A DNA stretch of 64,000 nt from an uncultured Pseudomonadota bacterium (GTDB lineage: Bacteria > Myxococcota_A > UBA796 > SXON01), in the NCBI GenBank assembly GCA_903875225.1, contig CAIQVJ010000089.1, positions 1 to 64,000 on the forward strand, in the 5' to 3' direction. The notes beneath the pieces were generated by a model. The model was given only the letters and a program-made list of their open reading frames with translations, did not search any database and was not told the DNA's origin. This document shows positions 25,715-44,306 of the stretch, piece after piece. The position numbers were made by a program, and so were the translations under genes. How positions within the stretch are numbered: position 1 is the first letter of the stretch; the number at the start of each line of letters is the position of its first letter.

Positions 25715-26230
25715 GTGAGCGAGCCTTCCCGGAAACCCCTGGAGTTCGATGTCGGACTCCTCACCGGCACGAGAGAAATCGACGATCAGCATCGCCAGAT
25801 CTTCCGCTTCGCCGAGGTGCTGCTCACCTCGCTTCGGGGCTCCGCAGAGCCCGCGGTGGTCCAGGCGGCCATCGACCGCCTCCTCGAGTACACGGATGCC
25901 CACTTCTCCGCGGAGGAGGAGGAGATGAAGCGGCTGTCCTACCCGCGTCGGGCCCAGCATCACGACGCCCACGTGCTGTTCCGCCGCGAACTGGACATCC
26001 TGAGGAAGGACTTCACAGCGAGCAGGAACGCCAGAAGCGCGGGGATCCGTCTGGAGTTCCTGATCGTCGACTGGTTCGCGGGCCACATCCATCACCTGGA
26101 CCGGGACCTCGCGACCTTTCTCCAGGGACAGCGCGCGGGTTCAAGGATTCGCGACATCCCTCCGACCGGGGCGCCCGTGCGCCCGCTCACCGAGCGGGAT
26201 CCATCGAACCCCAAGGCGCGCCCGCACTGA
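25715..26230 (+). CDS. Bacteriohemerythrin
   Basis: A 171-residue hemerythrin with the non-haem di-iron O2-binding ligands in order: DDQHRQIF (first His and nearby Asp), HFSAEEEEM, a QHHDAH pair, and WFAGHIHHLDRD. The family layout H...HxxxE...HxxxH...HxxxxD is complete. It probably carries or senses O2, and the 35-residue C-terminal extension is unconserved. GTG 25715 starts just after a 171-base gap from the acyltransferase start, in which I see no other element. Confidence 0.93.
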   Translation: MSEPSRKPLEFDVGLLTGTREIDDQHRQIFRFAEVLLTSLRGSAEPAVVQAAIDRLLEYTDAHFSAEEEEMKRLSYPRRAQHHDAHVLFRRELDILRKDFTASRNARSAGIRLEFLIVDWFAGHIHHLDRDLATFLQGQRAGSRIRDIPPTGAPVRPLTERDPSNPKARPH

Positions 26231-26248: not shown

Positions 26249-27739
26249 TCAGTACAGGTACGCCTTGCCGGAAAAGGCCCCCCCGTCGTCGTTGTAGATC
26301 GCGCCGATCAGCAGGTCGTCTGTGCCGTCGCCGTCCACGTCGGAGCCCGAGGCGATCGCCCGCCCGAACGCGTCTGCCACCTGCTCGCCGTGAAGGATGG
26401 CGTCGACGCTCGCGAGCAGCGTGCTCCCGCCTGCCCAGGGCCCGAGGTCGACGTACACCGCACCCGCGTCCTGGGCGCCGCGATCACTGGCCGGTGCGCC
26501 GACTGCGAGATCGACGACGCCGTCGCCGTCCACGTCGCCAGTGGCCACGCCAAACGCTGCGAGGTCATCAGGGTGTTCGCCCCTCCACCGATCGGGTTCG
26601 TCCTGCAGCGAGCGGACGTCGTTCGGTGCGCCCGTGAGAGCACCGTGGTGCAGGTAGAGCGTGCCGTTGTCCACGCCGTCCGCCGAGATCATCAGGTCGG
26701 TGTACCCGTCGGCGTCGACGTCGCCCGGGGCGTGGATGGGGCTCCCGGCGTAGCTGTAGGCCGCTGGCCCCACGAGCGAGAGGTCGGCGTCGGTGATCGC
26801 GTGCGTGCCCTCCGGCACCGGGCCGTAGTAGACCACGACCTTCCCCGTCGAAGACCCGTTCTCGTCTGCGCCGCTGGCGCCGAGCGCGATGTCGTCGATG
26901 CCGTCCCCGTTCATGTCGCCGGGCAGCGCCACGGCGTTGCCGACTGCGTCTCCGCCACCAAACTCCCCGTGCATCAACGTCGTCGTCGTCGTGACCGGCA
27001 AGCCGAGGAACGTCGTCGCGACGGTCGAGAGCTGCACCTCCCCGGTCACCGGTCCGGGCACCAGGTACACCTTGCCGCCCCCGGCGCCGCCCGCGTCGCT
27101 GCCGCTCGCCCCGACGAGGTAGTCAGGCACTCCATCGCCAGTGAGATCACGCCCGCCGGTGAGCGCGACGCCCGCGTAGTCGCTGCCCATCTCGCCGATC
27201 AGGCTGCCGGAGGCGACGTCGGCGAACTGCACCTCGGGGCCCCACACGGCGCCGGGGAGGATCCAGACCCGCCCGGCGTTGCTCCCGTTGGTCCCGTCGC
27301 CGATCGCGCCGACCAGCACGTCCTGGCGACCATCTCCGTCTCCGTCGCCTCCTGCCGCGAGCCCGTACCCGGAGAAGTCGTAGTCCCCGAGCCCGGCCCA
27401 GCACACGTCGGCATCTGCGATGGTGCGGGCGGGCGAGGCCGCGGAGAGCCCGGCCCCCGACCACGCACACACATGGTTGCCGTAGTACGCCGCCACGACG
27501 ACGTCGGGGACGCCGTCGCCATCCACGTCGCCGGGGAGCGTGACGGCGTTCCCCGCGGCGTCGGATGGCCCACCCACGAAGGTGTAGACCGTGTCGTCGG
27601 GGGACCCCGTGTCGGTGTCGGTCCCGGTCTCGCTGGTGTCGAGCGAGTCATCGGGCGCGCCGGAGTCGTCCGCCCCCTTGCGGATGCACCCCGCTGCCAG
27701 CGCGAGGAGCAGCGCGACCGGGCAGCGGCCGACCGTCAC
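26249..27739 (-). CDS. FG-GAP/VCBS repeat lipoprotein
   Basis: A 496-residue lipoprotein starting at GTG 27739, with signal ALLLALAAGC (cysteine about residue 18), then a linker rich in Asp, Thr and Ser. The rest is a seven-bladed-type propeller of FG-GAP repeats, each with calcium-binding loops such as GDVDGDGVPD, GDGDGDGRQD, GDMNGDGIDD, GDVDGDGVVD and GSDVDGDGTDD. This resembles integrin-alpha-like adhesion propellers. It is the last gene of the five-gene operon and overlaps its predecessor as GTGA. Confidence 0.92.
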   Translation of the reverse strand: MTVGRCPVALLLALAAGCIRKGADDSGAPDDSLDTSETGTDTDTGSPDDTVYTFVGGPSDAAGNAVTLPGDVDGDGVPDVVVAAYYGNHVCAWSGAGLSAASPARTIADADVCWAGLGDYDFSGYGLAAGGDGDGDGRQDVLVGAIGDGTNGSNAGRVWILPGAVWGPEVQFADVASGSLIGEMGSDYAGVALTGGRDLTGDGVPDYLVGASGSDAGGAGGGKVYLVPGPVTGEVQLSTVATTFLGLPVTTTTTLMHGEFGGGDAVGNAVALPGDMNGDGIDDIALGASGADENGSSTGKVVVYYGPVPEGTHAITDADLSLVGPAAYSYAGSPIHAPGDVDADGYTDLMISADGVDNGTLYLHHGALTGAPNDVRSLQDEPDRWRGEHPDDLAAFGVATGDVDGDGVVDLAVGAPASDRGAQDAGAVYVDLGPWAGGSTLLASVDAILHGEQVADAFGRAIASGSDVDGDGTDDLLIGAIYNDDGGAFSGKAYLY

Positions 27740-28554
27740 GACTCCTCGGTGCGCTGGATCAGCTGCTCGACGACGTCGCGGTCCACCGCCCCGGGCTCGA
27801 TCACGAGGTACCGCCGGAGGTCACGCGCGGCCTCCTGCGGCCGGGCGAGGTGCAGCAGCAGGAGCGCGCGGTCACGGATCTCCGTCGGCTGCTCGCCGGC
27901 GATGAGCAGGATGCGATCCACGGCCGCGAGCGCCTGGACGTGATCATCCCTGTCGATCCAGAGGTTCTTGAGGTTCGTGAGCATCCGGGCGACGATCGGT
28001 CGGATCCCCACCGGCTGCAGGAACCGACGCGCGGCGTCAACAGCCTCCGGCGGCCCGCCAGGCAACCGGTCCATGAGGTCGCGCGCCTCGCGGACCTGGC
28101 CGCCGTGGAACGGGTCCACGTACACGCAGGCACCGGGCTTCACGATGCAGGCGAGAAAATGTCCGGGAAACCCGACCCCCTCCACCTGCACCCCGAGCCG
28201 ACGCCCGAGCAGGATCCACAGCACGCTCAACAGGATCGGGAGCCCGCTGCGGGTCTCGATGACCTCGTCCAGGTACGAAGCGCCGGGATTCGAGAACACG
28301 CCGGGGTGGCCGCGAAAGCCCAACCGACCCCCGAGGGCTGCGGCAAGCTGAGCCGCGAGACGGTCCGGCGGCGCAGACGGCGTGATGTCGTCCTGCACCT
28401 CCTCGGCGAGACGGTCCAGGGCGGCGGAGACCGCGCCGAAGTCGAGATCGGGCTTTCCGATCGCCGCGACGCCGAGCGTGAGCTCCTCGAGGTCCAGCAC
28501 CTCGTCCGGCGCGCGGGCTGCAAGGGCGAACCGGACGGCGCCCGAGAGCTTCAC
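27736..28554 (-). CDS. SirB1-like transglutaminase/TPR protein
   Basis: A 272-residue protein of the SirB1/transglut_core2 family. The core FSNPGASYLDEVIETRSGLPILLSVLW aligns with the family's N-P-SYLD...R-GIPI pattern. The later GVGFPGHFLACI carries the histidine of the transglutaminase-like triad, but the usual cysteine position in the core is not obvious. A TPR-like C-terminal helix set follows. GTG 28554 overlaps the upstream stop as GTGA. The enzymatic function of SirB1 proteins is not settled. Confidence 0.86.
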   Translation of the reverse strand: MKLSGAVRFALAARAPDEVLDLEELTLGVAAIGKPDLDFGAVSAALDRLAEEVQDDITPSAPPDRLAAQLAAALGGRLGFRGHPGVFSNPGASYLDEVIETRSGLPILLSVLWILLGRRLGVQVEGVGFPGHFLACIVKPGACVYVDPFHGGQVREARDLMDRLPGGPPEAVDAARRFLQPVGIRPIVARMLTNLKNLWIDRDDHVQALAAVDRILLIAGEQPTEIRDRALLLLHLARPQEAARDLRRYLVIEPGAVDRDVVEQLIQRTEES

Positions 28555-29762
28555 GACTGCGCCATCCGACCCGGCAGCGCCGGTGGGAAGGTGGCGAAGG
28601 AGCCGCGCCCCACCTCGATCGGCCTGGCCCCGAGATCCGTGAGGGACCGTACCCACACGCACGGCGGCGCGGAGAGGTCAGCCTGCCCACCACCCGCGGG
28701 GTAGCCGCACCATGTGACCCACTCACCGTCCGGGGAGACGAGCGGGTGGCTCTGCACGAACTGGTCGAAGAAGTGCAACCAGAAGAACAGGTCCCGCGTG
28801 GGCCAGAAGGTGCCGAGCACCGTCTCCGCGCCAGTGGCGAGGTCGATGTGGAGCACGGAGGTGCAGTTCGCGGGAGCATCCACCCGGAACGTGACCAGCG
28901 CCGTTCCTCCCGGCACCCACGTGAAGGCGAGCAGCTCACCCTCGTTGATCCGGCGGGGCGGGTCTGGGAGCAACGGGTCGAACACCTCGAGGCCGCTGTA
29001 GGGCGAGCCTTCACCCCCGGTCGCGAAGGTGAGCGCCGCGAGGTGCGTCGGGCCCGCGGCGAGGGCGACCAGGCCGGGGCGGTCGGCGATCTCGATCTCG
29101 TGCTCCCCATCCGGGGTGCAGCTCACGACGAGCGAGGTACGCACCTCGTCCTCGTCTGCGTTGGCCCGCACCGCCACGAGAGCGCGCCCGGCGACGAACA
29201 CCGGCGCACAGAAGCTGCCCGGCGCCCTGTGGTACAGGTGGTCCTCGTCGTCCCCCCGCGGGTCGCGGATCAGGAGCGAGCCACCCGGTTTGCCGCGCTC
29301 GCCGTGGTGGACCCACAAGCGGGAGCCGTCCGGTGTCCAGTTGAAGAACAGCGGTACGCCCTGTGCGACCTCCTTCACGGTCCCCAGCCGGCTCTCCTGG
29401 ATGAGCCCGAGCCGCAGGTCGTCGTCCACCTGGGTGAGCGCACAGAGAGCATCTCCCGCGGGGTGCCACTGCAGGTAGAGCGGTGCGGCGTCGGGCAGAT
29501 CGGCCCACTCCGTCTGGCGCACACCGTCGGCCGACATGGTCACCACGCGCGCGGGACCGGCTTCGTCGTCGCGGGTGAGCGTGGCGAACGCCGCGATCCA
29601 GGTGCCGTCCGGCGACCACGTGGGCCAGCTCCACGCCTCCTGCGGCGCAGGCACGAGCGTGAAGCTCGGAGGGGCGGTGAGCGGCGTGGTCGTCAGGCGA
29701 CCCTGCTCCCACCCCGACACCACGTGGAGCTGCCGATCGATGCCAACGTAGACCAGGTTCAT
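28551..29762 (-). CDS. WD40-like/TolB-type beta-propeller protein
   Basis: A 403-residue protein with repeated PDG turns typical of TolB/PD40-type propellers (WSPDGTWIAAFA, WHPAGDALCALT, WTPDGSRLWVHH, VSPDGEWVTW). No signal peptide is visible, so it appears cytoplasmic, and no peptidase domain is attached. It overlaps the upstream membrane-protein gene as ATGA and the SirB1-like gene as GTGA. The C-terminal YPAGGGQADLSAPPC is unconserved to my eye. Role within the operon unknown. Confidence 0.83.
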   Translation of the reverse strand: MNLVYVGIDRQLHVVSGWEQGRLTTTPLTAPPSFTLVPAPQEAWSWPTWSPDGTWIAAFATLTRDDEAGPARVVTMSADGVRQTEWADLPDAAPLYLQWHPAGDALCALTQVDDDLRLGLIQESRLGTVKEVAQGVPLFFNWTPDGSRLWVHHGERGKPGGSLLIRDPRGDDEDHLYHRAPGSFCAPVFVAGRALVAVRANADEDEVRTSLVVSCTPDGEHEIEIADRPGLVALAAGPTHLAALTFATGGEGSPYSGLEVFDPLLPDPPRRINEGELLAFTWVPGGTALVTFRVDAPANCTSVLHIDLATGAETVLGTFWPTRDLFFWLHFFDQFVQSHPLVSPDGEWVTWCGYPAGGGQADLSAPPCVWVRSLTDLGARPIEVGRGSFATFPPALPGRMAQS

Positions 29763-30175
29763 CCGAACGCCCGATAATAGAGCCACGAGACCACCAGCGC
29801 AGACACCACGGGGGTCACGAGCCCCGCACGCGGGGACGCATGGACGTCCGCCAGCCCCTTCGGCCGCTGCGCTCGCTCGCTGGCAAGCTCGGTCCGAAAG
29901 GCGTCGGGCAGTTGCTGCAGCCGCGCGAGCTCACGCATCGCGTGCACGGCCGTGTCGTTGTTGGTGCCGAACGCAGACAACGACGACAGCAGGCTCGCGA
30001 CGCACACCACCAGGTGCCCCGGAGGTGCGAGGCCCAGGACCACGCGCGTGACCACCGCGAGGACTGCCGGACAGGCGACCGTGAACAGCGCCACGCCCAC
30101 CCAGCGCAGCCGGGCGTGAAGGTGGAGTCGGCTCGTGAGGACCTGCGAGCCCTCGCTGACGGCGTGCGGGCTCAT
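29759..30175 (-). CDS. Small membrane protein
   Basis: A 138-residue protein with hydrophobic segments at about residues 25-45, 50-70 and 117-136, with a charged helical stretch between the second and third (RELARLQQLPDAFRTELASERAQRPKG). No family recognised. The ATG overlaps the tetR stop as ATGA and its own stop overlaps the propeller gene's ATG. It may anchor the propeller protein to the membrane, which is inference from gene order. Confidence 0.75.
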   Translation of the reverse strand: MSPHAVSEGSQVLTSRLHLHARLRWVGVALFTVACPAVLAVVTRVVLGLAPPGHLVVCVASLLSSLSAFGTNNDTAVHAMRELARLQQLPDAFRTELASERAQRPKGLADVHASPRAGLVTPVVSALVVSWLYYRAFG

Positions 30176-30780
30176 GGGCGCCCGGGCAGGAGCCCGAAGA
30201 GCAAGAGCCGGATGCCATCGCTGGTGAGGCGCTCGACGTCGGGCCGCGCGCCGACAGCGCTCTGCCCGGCGAGCCCGTCGATGATCGCCTTCAACATCTG
30301 GGCGACGGCCAGGGGGTCGTAGGTGGCGAAGTGGCCCTGGTCCATGCCCTGCTTGATCACCGCCGCGATGCGCTCCACAAAGCGCGTGTGGATGCCGTTC
30401 ACGCGCTTGCGGATGCTCTCGTCACGGATGGCCATCTCGCTCATCAACAGGAAGAACCGGGGAGGGGTCTTGAGTCCGGCGAAGTAGTCCAGGTACTTCT
30501 TTCCGAGATCGATGAGCTTGATCTCGGGGGGACGGGAGTCGCGATCGGCCTCCTCGAGGAAGCTCACCGTGATCGCGTGCTCCTCCTCCACGAGGGCGTC
30601 GAAGATGGAGCGCTTGGAGTCGAAGTAGAAGTACACCGCGCCCTTCGACAGGTGGGCGCGCTTGGCGACATCTTCCACCCGGGCCGCGAGGTACCCATGG
30701 TCGATGAAAACAGCGCGCGCCGCCCTGAGGATCTGGGCCCGACGCTCGGTTTCGGACTGGTGGCGTGTCACCCGCGTCAT
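30172..30780 (-). CDS. TetR/AcrR-family transcriptional regulator
   Basis: A 202-residue TetR-type repressor. The N-terminal helix-turn-helix is clear (RRAQILRAARAVFIDHGYLAARVEDVAKRAHLSKGAVYFYFDSK, about residues 13-56). The rest is an all-helical ligand-binding domain. It is the first gene of the five-gene operon 30780-26249 and would be expected to autoregulate it from the 137-base gap before gene 30918. I found no clear inverted repeat in that gap. Confidence 0.94.
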   Translation of the reverse strand: MTRVTRHQSETERRAQILRAARAVFIDHGYLAARVEDVAKRAHLSKGAVYFYFDSKRSIFDALVEEEHAITVSFLEEADRDSRPPEIKLIDLGKKYLDYFAGLKTPPRFFLLMSEMAIRDESIRKRVNGIHTRFVERIAAVIKQGMDQGHFATYDPLAVAQMLKAIIDGLAGQSAVGARPDVERLTSDGIRLLLFGLLPGRP

Positions 30781-30917: not shown

Positions 30918-31490
30918 ATGTCCCTGCTTCTCCTCGCGCTCGTAGCCTGCACCTCCAAGGAGGCCGACGACACCTCGCCCACCGCGGATGCCGACACGGA
31001 CACCGACACCGACGCCGACTCCGATGCGGACACCGACGCCGATACCGACACCGATGTCCCCGACACCGGCGCCATCGAGCTCCCCGCGAGCCCGCTCCCG
31101 ATCGACCTCACGCTCACCGGATCCGCCACCGGGACCGCGCACTTCGACCGGATCGTGTGCTCCTACCCGCCGAACCACCAGCTCCAGCTCACCTACTCCG
31201 ACTCCAACAATTCGTACACGTGGGCGATGCGCGCGTTCATCCGCGAGACGTTCACCGGCGACGGGACCTACTCGACGAACGTGCAGGTCCAGCTGCTCGA
31301 AGACTTCAGCGGTGGCCGGTACTATGCGGCGAGCTCGGCAGACGGCACCGCTGTGGCCGTGACCGTCGACGGGTTCGGCGCCAACGGGGCCTACGGGAGC
31401 ATCACCACCGCGCCGCTCACCGGGGACGCCGGGGACGTGACGCTGGCTCCGCAGCCGATCCCCTTCTGGTGCGACGCGATCGACTCATGA
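30918..31490 (+). CDS. Lipoprotein with Asp/Thr repeat linker
   Basis: A 190-residue predicted lipoprotein with the short signal MSLLLLALVAC (cysteine at residue 11) then TSKEADD. Residues 20-48 are a simple DADTD/DTDSD linker encoded by a near-repetitive tract. A beta-rich domain of about 130 residues follows, with no family I recognise. The linker probably spaces the domain from the membrane. The stop overlaps the ATG of the 40-residue protein (ATGA). Confidence 0.82.
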   Translation: MSLLLLALVACTSKEADDTSPTADADTDTDTDADSDADTDADTDTDVPDTGAIELPASPLPIDLTLTGSATGTAHFDRIVCSYPPNHQLQLTYSDSNNSYTWAMRAFIRETFTGDGTYSTNVQVQLLEDFSGGRYYAASSADGTAVAVTVDGFGANGAYGSITTAPLTGDAGDVTLAPQPIPFWCDAIDS

Positions 31491-40825: not shown

Positions 40826-43674
40826 AGCGATCGTGGATCATCGGAGGTCTGCTTTCCGGGGTCGGCGCGCTCGCGCTCGTCTCGGTCGACCCGGAGGCCC
40901 CTCCGGCCGGAAACCCGGTGTACAGCGAGGCGCTGGTCGTGCTGGATCGACTGCAGGACGCCGGCGAGCCCGTCGGGCGGATCCCGATGGAGTGGGCGGC
41001 CCCGACGATCGCGCGGGCAGGCCTGCGGGAGTGGGTGCAGACGCTGCCGCTCAAGGAAGACGTGAAGGTTCGGGTGCTCGCGAGCATCGATGCCCGGAAC
41101 CTGGTGGACGAGCTGATCCCCTTCGCGTTGTTCCTGAAGGAGGTCTACGGGCGCGCAGGCAGTGAGCCGATCAACGGCTTCGACGCGTGGGCACGGGTGA
41201 ACGTGACGCCCGGCCCCGGGCTCGAGCACGACAACTTCCGGTTCGAGGCTCCGGCCCCGGCGGCCTCGACCCCGACCGGGTTCCTCACCCCGGAGCGCAT
41301 CGCAGGCCTGGTCACGCTCTACGACGCAGCGTGGCTCTCCACCTCGCGTCCGGGCGACGACCTCGGCGAGCGCCTCCACTGCACCGCGGACGGCCCGGAC
41401 ATCCCGCCGGACCAGCTGGCCGCCCGGGTGGACGCCACGCGCCCCATCCTGCGCGGGCTCTTCGCCGAGGCCGCAGCGCAGATGGAGCCCGGCGACATCC
41501 GGACAGCCGCCGAGAAGATCACGACCGACGACGTTCGTCAGAGCGCGATCGCCGCGACCCTGCTGCAGTTCGTGGACGGGGAGGTGTGCAAGCACTATCG
41601 TGTGTTCGCCCGCCGCCTGGCCACCGAGCGCGCAGTCCGGAGCCTGCTGGACAGCGGGATCGACCACCCCGCCGATCCTGCCATGTGGACGTGGCTGCAC
41701 TACGAGGATCAGCGCCACCTGGCCGTGCAGATCATCGTGGACGGCCTGCAGGGTCGGCTCGTACGCGCGCTGGCGAACCCCACGGGCCTCGACCCCTACC
41801 TGGCCGGCCTGCTCGCGGCCGAGACCGCTGCGAAAGCCCTCCCGAAGCCGACGCCGTCTGCCGTTCGCGCCGCAGACGTGCACGAGGACTACCTCCCCGA
41901 CTTCGCGGTCCGCGGGGGGCACCCCACGCCGTACCTCGAGCACCTGCTCTCCACCGTCCAGCCCGGCATCGCCCTGCAGGGCATCTCGACCACGCCGACG
42001 ATCTCGGTGCGGAACCTCCCGATCGTCAAGACCGGCGCGCCGGTCGCGGGCGAGGGAGCAACCGGGATCCCCAACTTCCACTTCGTGGATCGGTCGACCG
42101 GGGAGGGGGGGCGGGCCTGGTACTTCTACGGCAACGACGCCGTGCAGCTCCCCGCGCTGGCGCGGGCCGCGGGGATGAAGACGCTGTTCGAGCGCCTGGA
42201 GCGCCTCGACACGATGAGCTGCGGGGCGCAGTACGACGAGCGGGCCGGGTACAGCTTCGACGCCTTCCTGAACCTCGCCATCGGGGAGCGGAAGCGCGAT
42301 TTTGGCGAGGCGATGTGCGCGGACGACCTGAACGTGCGTGCGCGGAACGAGGTGGAGCTCCGCGGGCTGCGGTCGGCGTTGCTGGAACGCGAAGCGGTGC
42401 TCTCCACCCCGCACCACGTCTGGGAGGTCTGGGACGCCTGGAACCAGCGCAACGAGCGGGTCCACGCGCACGCGTTGGCGGAGCGGATCGCCGCGCTCTC
42501 CGTCGAGGCGATGCCCGACCTGCTGCAATGGTACGACCCCTGGCCCGACCACTTCGCCCACGGCAAGGGCCCGCTCTCCGACGAGATCGTCAGCTCCACC
42601 GGGGAGCTTGCGCGCCTGGACCACTGGCTCGGCCTGGTCGACGCCGCCTACTCGACCGCGGGGGTGCGGGACCGCACGCTGTTCGGCATGGCCGGCGACC
42701 ACGGGCTCACCTCCGTGCACTGGTTCGTCCGGCCCGAGACCGAGGTGCTGGACGGCATGGGCAGGGACGGGATCCGGCTCAAGGTCACAAAGATCAGCTC
42801 CGACGAGGGGGAGGGGCCCCGGCTCACCGACCCGCTGCATCCCCCCTCGATGCGCGGCTGGGACGTGATCGTCGCATCCACGGCGGGCGGCAACTACATG
42901 ATGGACTGGTTTGTGGACCAGGGCGCCAACTGGAGCCGCCAACCCGTGCTCTCGGAGCTACGCGCGCTCAAGGTGCAATCCGGCCAGACCATCGACGTCG
43001 TCGACCAGATCGTGCGTCGCCTGGGTGCGAGCCTGGACTACCTCGTGGTGCGCGAGGGGCCCTGCGATCCCACGCAGGCCCACGTGTACCTCGAGGGGGA
43101 CCGGGACGGACGACGCGTCGTGGCCCACATCACGCGGGTTGGGGACAGGATCAGCTACGTCACGGACCCGGCGGCGGACCTGCTCGACGTGCGCACCCAC
43201 TCCCCGTGGGGGGCGATGCCCCAGTCCACCGAGGCCTGCACCGGGGTGAGCGCCTCGCCGAATCCGTCGGACTGGTGCGCCGAGTCCGAGTGGCGCTCGA
43301 AGAACTGGGCGACATCCAGGCCGGACGCCGTCGCCCAGCTAGCGCACCTCTACGACACCGACAGGGCCGGGACGGTGAACCTGTTCCCCAGGGACGGCAT
43401 CGGCTACAACACGGTCGTCCCCGGGCGCCACGCGGGCGAGAGCTACGCGGAGAAGGACGCGTTCGTCGGGGTGTGGGGCGCGCCGGTGGACGAAAACGCC
43501 GGGCAGGTGTCGGTCGCGGTGAACGGAGCGATGCCCGAGGCGATCTACGCGTGGATCACCGGGCAGGAGCCCGTCTCGGGCAAGGACGGCTGGGGGTATG
43601 AGCCGGTGCTGGACCAGGTCTTGAGGAAACAGGCGCCGCCTCAGAACCACGCGCAGGAGGAGTCCGAGAGGTAG
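40822..43674 (+). CDS. Alkaline phosphatase superfamily hydrolase (type I phosphodiesterase-like)
   Basis: A 950-residue exported protein: MKRSWIIGGLLSGVGALALVS signal, an N-terminal helical region of about 370 residues I do not recognise, then an alkaline-phosphatase-superfamily domain. Elements: TPYLEHLLSTV, putative nucleophile T393 in PTISVRN, GIPNFHFVDR, DPWPDHFAHGKG and the metal-binding GDHGLTS (D626). The first metal Asp is not evident. Substrate could be a sulfate or phosphate ester. It overlaps the ASST gene, suggesting joint action on sulfated or phosphorylated substrates. Confidence 0.8.
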   Translation: MKRSWIIGGLLSGVGALALVSVDPEAPPAGNPVYSEALVVLDRLQDAGEPVGRIPMEWAAPTIARAGLREWVQTLPLKEDVKVRVLASIDARNLVDELIPFALFLKEVYGRAGSEPINGFDAWARVNVTPGPGLEHDNFRFEAPAPAASTPTGFLTPERIAGLVTLYDAAWLSTSRPGDDLGERLHCTADGPDIPPDQLAARVDATRPILRGLFAEAAAQMEPGDIRTAAEKITTDDVRQSAIAATLLQFVDGEVCKHYRVFARRLATERAVRSLLDSGIDHPADPAMWTWLHYEDQRHLAVQIIVDGLQGRLVRALANPTGLDPYLAGLLAAETAAKALPKPTPSAVRAADVHEDYLPDFAVRGGHPTPYLEHLLSTVQPGIALQGISTTPTISVRNLPIVKTGAPVAGEGATGIPNFHFVDRSTGEGGRAWYFYGNDAVQLPALARAAGMKTLFERLERLDTMSCGAQYDERAGYSFDAFLNLAIGERKRDFGEAMCADDLNVRARNEVELRGLRSALLEREAVLSTPHHVWEVWDAWNQRNERVHAHALAERIAALSVEAMPDLLQWYDPWPDHFAHGKGPLSDEIVSSTGELARLDHWLGLVDAAYSTAGVRDRTLFGMAGDHGLTSVHWFVRPETEVLDGMGRDGIRLKVTKISSDEGEGPRLTDPLHPPSMRGWDVIVASTAGGNYMMDWFVDQGANWSRQPVLSELRALKVQSGQTIDVVDQIVRRLGASLDYLVVREGPCDPTQAHVYLEGDRDGRRVVAHITRVGDRISYVTDPAADLLDVRTHSPWGAMPQSTEACTGVSASPNPSDWCAESEWRSKNWATSRPDAVAQLAHLYDTDRAGTVNLFPRDGIGYNTVVPGRHAGESYAEKDAFVGVWGAPVDENAGQVSVAVNGAMPEAIYAWITGQEPVSGKDGWGYEPVLDQVLRKQAPPQNHAQEESER

Positions 43675-44306
43675 TTCGCGGCCCCGGACACCCAGTAGCC
43701 CGTCCCGAATTGTGCCCCCGACGCCTCGAAATGCCAGGTCGAGGTGCCGTCGGCTGCCTCGTCGATCGCATAGTCCTCGGAGTACGTCTCGTCGCCGTGG
43801 TACATCGGAGTGGGGCAGGTGGTCTGGTCGGTGTTGAGGTTCGCGGAGACCGTGAGGCCGAGGTCGCAGCCGGAGCAGTCGCCCTGCGTCGCGGTCATGT
43901 CCCACACGATCATGCAGTCCGCGCCACCGTGGCTCTTCCACGAGGTGTTGGCGTAGTAGTAGATCGCCTCCTGGCCGACCCAGGCGCTGCCCGACGTGTT
44001 GGTGTACTCGCCCCAGAAGTACTCGCGGGCGCCGTCCACGGTCTCGCCGCCCAGCGTCTCGCACGCATCGGAGTTGGGCACGATGGCTTCGCGCACGTCG
44101 AGGAGCAGGTCGGCATCGGCGTCCGAGTCCGTGTCGGCGTCGGTGTCGGAATCGGTGTCGGCATCCGAGTCGGCGTCGGAATCGGCGTCGGAGTCGGCGT
44201 CGGTGTCCGCGTCCCCATCCGGGCCGGTGCCCGAATCCTTGCCGCCGGTGCAGCCGATCGGGGCGAAGTACAAGGACGCGAGGGCAAGAAGGGGCAGGCA
44301 GCGCAT
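43641..44306 (-). CDS. Lipoprotein with Asp/Ser/Thr repeat linker
   Basis: A 221-residue predicted lipoprotein: signal LLALASLYFAPIGC, then TGGKDSG and a repetitive DADTDSD linker of about 40 residues, encoded by a near-repetitive tract. The C-terminal domain is Cys-rich (four to six Cys, e.g. CDLGLTVSANLNTDQTTC) and aromatic, probably disulfide-bonded. No family recognised. ATG 44306 has GGAG upstream. Its 3' end overlaps the AP-superfamily gene tail to tail by 34 bases. Confidence 0.82.
   Translation of the reverse strand: MRCLPLLALASLYFAPIGCTGGKDSGTGPDGDADTDADSDADSDADSDADTDSDTDADTDSDADADLLLDVREAIVPNSDACETLGGETVDGAREYFWGEYTNTSGSAWVGQEAIYYYANTSWKSHGGADCMIVWDMTATQGDCSGCDLGLTVSANLNTDQTTCPTPMYHGDETYSEDYAIDEAADGTSTWHFEASGAQFGTGYWVSGAANYLSDSSCAWF

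Follow-up and report, generated by a model that had tools for sequence, protein, structure and literature searches.

A five-gene TetR-family operon with an uncharacterised membrane protein and a hydrolase-less propeller, apparently assembled in steps within one bacterial lineage

We analysed a 64,000-nucleotide stretch of contig CAIQVJ010000089.1 (assembly GCA_903875225.1, hereafter the window) from an uncultured bacterium of the GTDB lineage Myxococcota_A, in which five genes run along the minus strand from 26249 to 30780. In gene order they encode a TetR-family regulator (30172-30780), a 138-residue membrane protein without a Pfam family (MEM, 29759-30175), a beta-propeller of the PD40/DPP-IV type (PROP, 28551-29762), a SirB1-like protein (27736-28554) and a secreted FG-GAP lipoprotein (26249-27739). 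Neighbouring genes share exactly 4 bases at all four junctions, which read ATGA, ATGA, GTGA and GTGA from the TetR gene to the FG-GAP gene. A preliminary description of this DNA had proposed a fully overlapping five-gene operon, and both the arrangement and the protein families that it named were borne out by the open reading frames and by Pfam.

Overlaps of 4 bases are frequent in this DNA: they join 11 of the 41 same-strand neighbour pairs of the window, and 50 of 243 such pairs in relatives. With independent pairs, a stretch of this size would be expected to hold about 0.2 runs of four, so such a run does not settle the matter by itself. The main sequence evidence for an operon is the conservation of these junctions within the genus, where the 16 junctions of four other genomes comprise 13 exact 4-base overlaps, two 1-base overlaps and one 4-base gap. 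Among relatives in the family, 20 carry MEM and PROP on one contig, and in every one of them the two genes overlap by exactly 4 bases. The overlaps suggest that the five genes are co-transcribed and translationally coupled. The further proposal that the five proteins are made in fixed ratio went beyond the evidence, since overlap by itself does not imply such a ratio. A promoter and terminator scan found neither at the start or the end of the operon, and no sigma-70-like promoter upstream of the TetR gene. A bacteriohemerythrin gene (25715-26230) converges on the operon end across an 18-base gap in which no terminator-like site was detected.

To follow the gene set across relatives, we looked for PROP in 58 related genomes and re-annotated its surroundings with a codon-usage gene caller and tblastn; MEM, PROP and TetR were each also searched in 286 genomes of the phylum. 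The complete set of five is confined to the window's genus, where five of five genomes have it (the window and G001-G004). The preliminary description would have been refuted by a neighbourhood lost even from close relatives, which is not what the genus shows. The flanks of the set vary even within the genus: G001-G003 have an OmpR-type response regulator upstream, and G004 and the window have the lipoprotein gene at 30918 with MgsA; in G003 the response regulator gene itself overlaps the TetR gene by 4 bases. The SirB1-like gene directly follows PROP in the window's genus (g1) and in three other genera of the family (g4, g5 and g6) and is absent from that position in g2 and g3, and the FG-GAP gene adjoins the set only in g1. 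TetR, MEM and PROP are contiguous in every family genome but one (in G019 they are divided by a contig end), and the same trio is found in members of three other families (f4, f5 and f6). MEM was detected in 29 genomes, always at the TetR/PROP locus. PROP extends through the order, with a divergent form in one other family of the class (f7) and one weak partial match outside the class, and TetR orthologues occur in other classes of the phylum. The f7 propeller is longer, has neither TetR nor MEM with it and precedes a glutamine-amidotransferase-like gene; it is too distant to inform function. A plasmid-borne mobile unit was rejected, as tblastn found no match in plasmids. Two public metagenome-assembled records that contain close relatives of this locus (L061 and L067) bear the titles Bifidobacterium breve and Klebsiella pneumoniae; their locus genes match the Myxococcota-type group instead, which suggests that the records are mislabelled.

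These distributions show a stepwise growth in which MEM and PROP were placed behind TetR in one order, the SirB1-like gene was added in part of a family and the FG-GAP gene in a genus, the last two being recent additions. The idea of five genes forming one old functional set was not supported by this comparison; the order-wide core is TetR-MEM-PROP. The same pattern could also have arisen by ordinary operon drift, with the three core genes sharing a promoter for historical reasons, the SirB1-like and FG-GAP genes as passengers and the five proteins not acting together. The separate and recent phyletic ranges of the two downstream genes speak for drift, as does the general abundance of 4-base overlaps in the genome; the retention of core order and tight overlaps across four families despite changing flanks, and the fact that MEM is never found away from the locus, speak against it. 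Losses within the core bear on the same question. MEM is missing in f3, where TetR and PROP remain (several f3 genomes have coiled-coil genes directly after TetR), and PROP is missing in f2, where TetR and MEM remain (G022 and G031); these independent losses weaken the case for an obligate MEM-PROP complex. Six genomes (G024, G025, G038, G043, G045 and G049) carry MEM-PROP without a detectable TetR orthologue, so control by TetR is not obligatory either. Such losses point to loose rather than obligate cooperation, and drift therefore stays a serious rival that we regard as quite plausible, if short of probable.

The TetR regulator probably starts at the GTG at 30771 rather than at the ATG at 30780, because the conserved N-terminus of its relatives reads [M/V]T[R/K]H; the overlap with MEM is the same with either start. 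The protein has both domains of a TetR-family repressor above cut-off, TetR_N (PF00440, E = 2e-16) and TetR_C_6 (PF13977, E = 2e-11). It is the most conserved member of the operon: orthologues share 90-94% identity within the genus, about 73% within the family and 47-68% within the order, and the identities at these three levels are 92, 73 and 62% for TetR, 74, 46 and 36% for PROP, and 58, 38 and 33% for MEM. The nearest solved relatives in a profile search were the structures of YfiR, MbdR and FadR, and all 25 TetR members match the FadR and FasR models below cut-off. The profile similarity to this group is full-length or nearly so; the controlled genes differ, however, and the scores fall far below the NCBIfam equivalog cut-offs (61.4 of 200 bits for FadR and 50.6 of 330 bits for FasR). 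No palindrome was shared upstream of 42 TetR genes, the best motif occurring in 11 genomes against 7-10 in shuffled sequences. The regulator appears to be older than MEM and PROP, because in orthologues from other classes neither gene adjoins it in 14 of 15 fetched loci (the 14 being those in which the gene could be located).

This apparent age difference underlies another reading, in which TetR is under the control of a membrane sensor made up of MEM and PROP, which might for instance tether it to the membrane and would have made an old stand-alone regulator responsive to a signal. It would accord with the direct, overlapping attachment of both genes behind a TetR that elsewhere in the phylum lacks them, and with the strong conservation of TetR. 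Against it, TetR cannot be the sole partner of a MEM-PROP pair that occurs in six genomes where no TetR orthologue was detected, and TetR in turn persists without MEM or PROP; we consider such a sensor unlikely. Likewise rather improbable in our judgement is the broader proposition that MEM and PROP constitute a new, lineage-specific membrane signalling scaffold appended to an ancient phylum-wide TetR, controlling it or controlled by it.

MEM was modelled by AlphaFold2 with a pLDDT of 96.5 as three long helices (residues 8-46, 54-85 and 115-137), and a fold search of the PDB gave no match at E <= 0.001. Its invariant residues are W25, G27, F69-G70, D74, E96 and E100. Positive charge is concentrated in the N-terminus and the loop at 79-116, from which the positive-inside rule predicts an inner-membrane protein with its N-terminus inside.

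PROP (403 residues) consists entirely of a propeller. PD40 is matched by PROP itself (E = 5e-6) and by 30 of 33 homologues, and a WSPDG-like blade motif recurs every 43-57 residues or so, giving about eight repeats as counted by motif spacing. The AlphaFold2 model (pLDDT 91.8, pTM 0.91) is all beta, with the N- and C-terminal strands closing the fold; invariant residues include W46, P47, Q111, W142, F184 and F331-F332-x-Q334 ... H339. The best Foldseek matches were the propellers of S9 peptidases, TolB, eIF2A and sortilin, with modest TM-scores (for the TolB and DPP-IV/prolyl-oligopeptidase types, E around 1e-8 and TM-scores of 0.3-0.57), and a profile match to TolB (E = 1.7e-9) covered the propeller part only. 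PROP thus has PD40 repeats and a blade type in common with TolB and with DPP-IV/prolyl-oligopeptidase-type propellers, but differs from TolB and the S9 peptidases in having no hydrolase domain, TolB N-terminal domain or signal peptide. An S9 peptidase was rejected because no alpha/beta-hydrolase domain follows the propeller, and the TolB of a Tol-Pal system because PROP starts directly with a strand and none of the examined neighbours could be recognised as a tol or pal gene. As it has no signal peptide, PROP is probably cytoplasmic. The G001 and G003 homologues (L069:6109-7542 and L071:6847-8310) are about 75-85 residues longer, with an insert around residues 200-230.

The SirB1-like protein has the two-domain architecture of Escherichia coli SirB1, Transglut_core2 (PF13369, E = 1.3e-39) followed by TPR_9 (PF13371, E = 3.5e-17), both far above cut-off. 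Its earlier description as transglutaminase-like holds for the fold, but in all ten aligned orthologues the segment RxGLPILLSVLW lacks the nucleophile Cys of the Cys-His-Asp triad; the His of the triad is kept in nine (Arg in G008) and the Asp in all ten. A catalytic transglutaminase or cysteine protease was accordingly rejected. The NCBIfam SirB1 model is matched at only 62 of 391 bits, far below its equivalog cut-off, and the neighbourhood also differs from that of SirB1. SirB1-type domains have been listed among candidate interactors of plastid CLP (PMC8889267). The last gene encodes a typical FG-GAP (integrin alpha-type) surface lipoprotein, with a signal ending in ALAAGC that holds the lipobox Cys, an Asp/Thr-rich linker, seven repeats (Pfam E = 6e-39) and six Ca2+ loops of the D-x-[DN]-x-[DG]-G type, counted by motif. 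Its place in the operon is genus-specific. In other respects nothing sets it apart from the large family to which it belongs, which has about 29 matches in its own genome, itself included, a point in favour of drift. A similar linker style, with long Asp/Thr/Ser-Asp repeats after the signal, recurs in two lipoprotein-like open reading frames of the window (30918-31490 and 43641-44273).

The reading that we favour, tentatively and at slightly less than an even chance, is a genuine operon grown in layers on an old TetR, with a membrane-docked propeller scaffold at its core and an adaptor and a surface lipoprotein added later. In this layered operon, TetR would sense a small, conserved, possibly acyl-type metabolite and control its own operon. 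MEM, placed in the inner membrane so that its charged loop faces the cytoplasm, would dock the cytoplasmic and catalytically empty PROP, and the propeller, held at the membrane in this way, could act as a scaffold for a client protein. The SirB1-like protein, with a transglutaminase fold lacking the nucleophile and a TPR domain, may be a further adaptor, and the FG-GAP lipoprotein may be exported to the surface as a product in its own right, regulated together with the others. Homeostasis or remodelling of the cell envelope would be the likeliest role. A known anti-phage defence system was rejected, as none of the five proteins has a match in PADLOC-DB. The combination was unfamiliar to the preliminary description, and our literature search likewise turned up nothing on TetR, MEM, PROP, SirB1-like and FG-GAP proteins together. 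The locus is moderately novel, joining in a lineage-specific operon a hydrolase-less propeller and a membrane protein family that is uncharacterised, and we see in it a modest lead, not a surprise. Its core, TetR-MEM-PROP, can be tested; the MEM family was never met apart from its partners in any genome searched; and the stepwise growth is clear, with steps that can be placed at the order, part of a family and the genus. A propeller docked at the membrane, if confirmed, would represent a cytoplasmic scaffold of a new kind at the inner membrane; otherwise the locus is still a good example of lineage-specific operon assembly.

Genes beyond the core were also compared across the order. TetR is often preceded by a B12-radical-SAM gene (about 530 residues), and three genes that often come after PROP encode an OmpA-like protein, an aldehyde dehydrogenase and a coiled-coil protein that has a Cys/His cluster. 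The coiled-coil protein is amphipathic, and its usual presence, with that of the dehydrogenase, beside what would be an acyl-responsive TetR could point to a module for lipid or aldehyde stress. Both genes adjoin TetR or PROP across the order even where MEM and PROP are missing, which together with the FadR/FasR-like character of TetR favours such a module; the dehydrogenase gene, however, is often on the opposite strand or hundreds of bases away, and TetR does not reach the equivalog cut-offs. The coiled-coil, OmpA-like and dehydrogenase genes, where found, are on another contig in four of the five genomes of the genus (in G000 the coiled-coil and dehydrogenase genes are on a different contig from the operon), and we consider a stress module very unlikely. 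The C-terminal domain of the coiled-coil protein depends on the family: it is mostly a Cys/His cluster (CKVxGCxxxxRSKGFCSxHYQQWRRG), has a Cys-less form in f4 and is replaced in two f3 genomes (L102 and L144) by a helix-hairpin-helix-like end (GLPGIGPSMAxRI).
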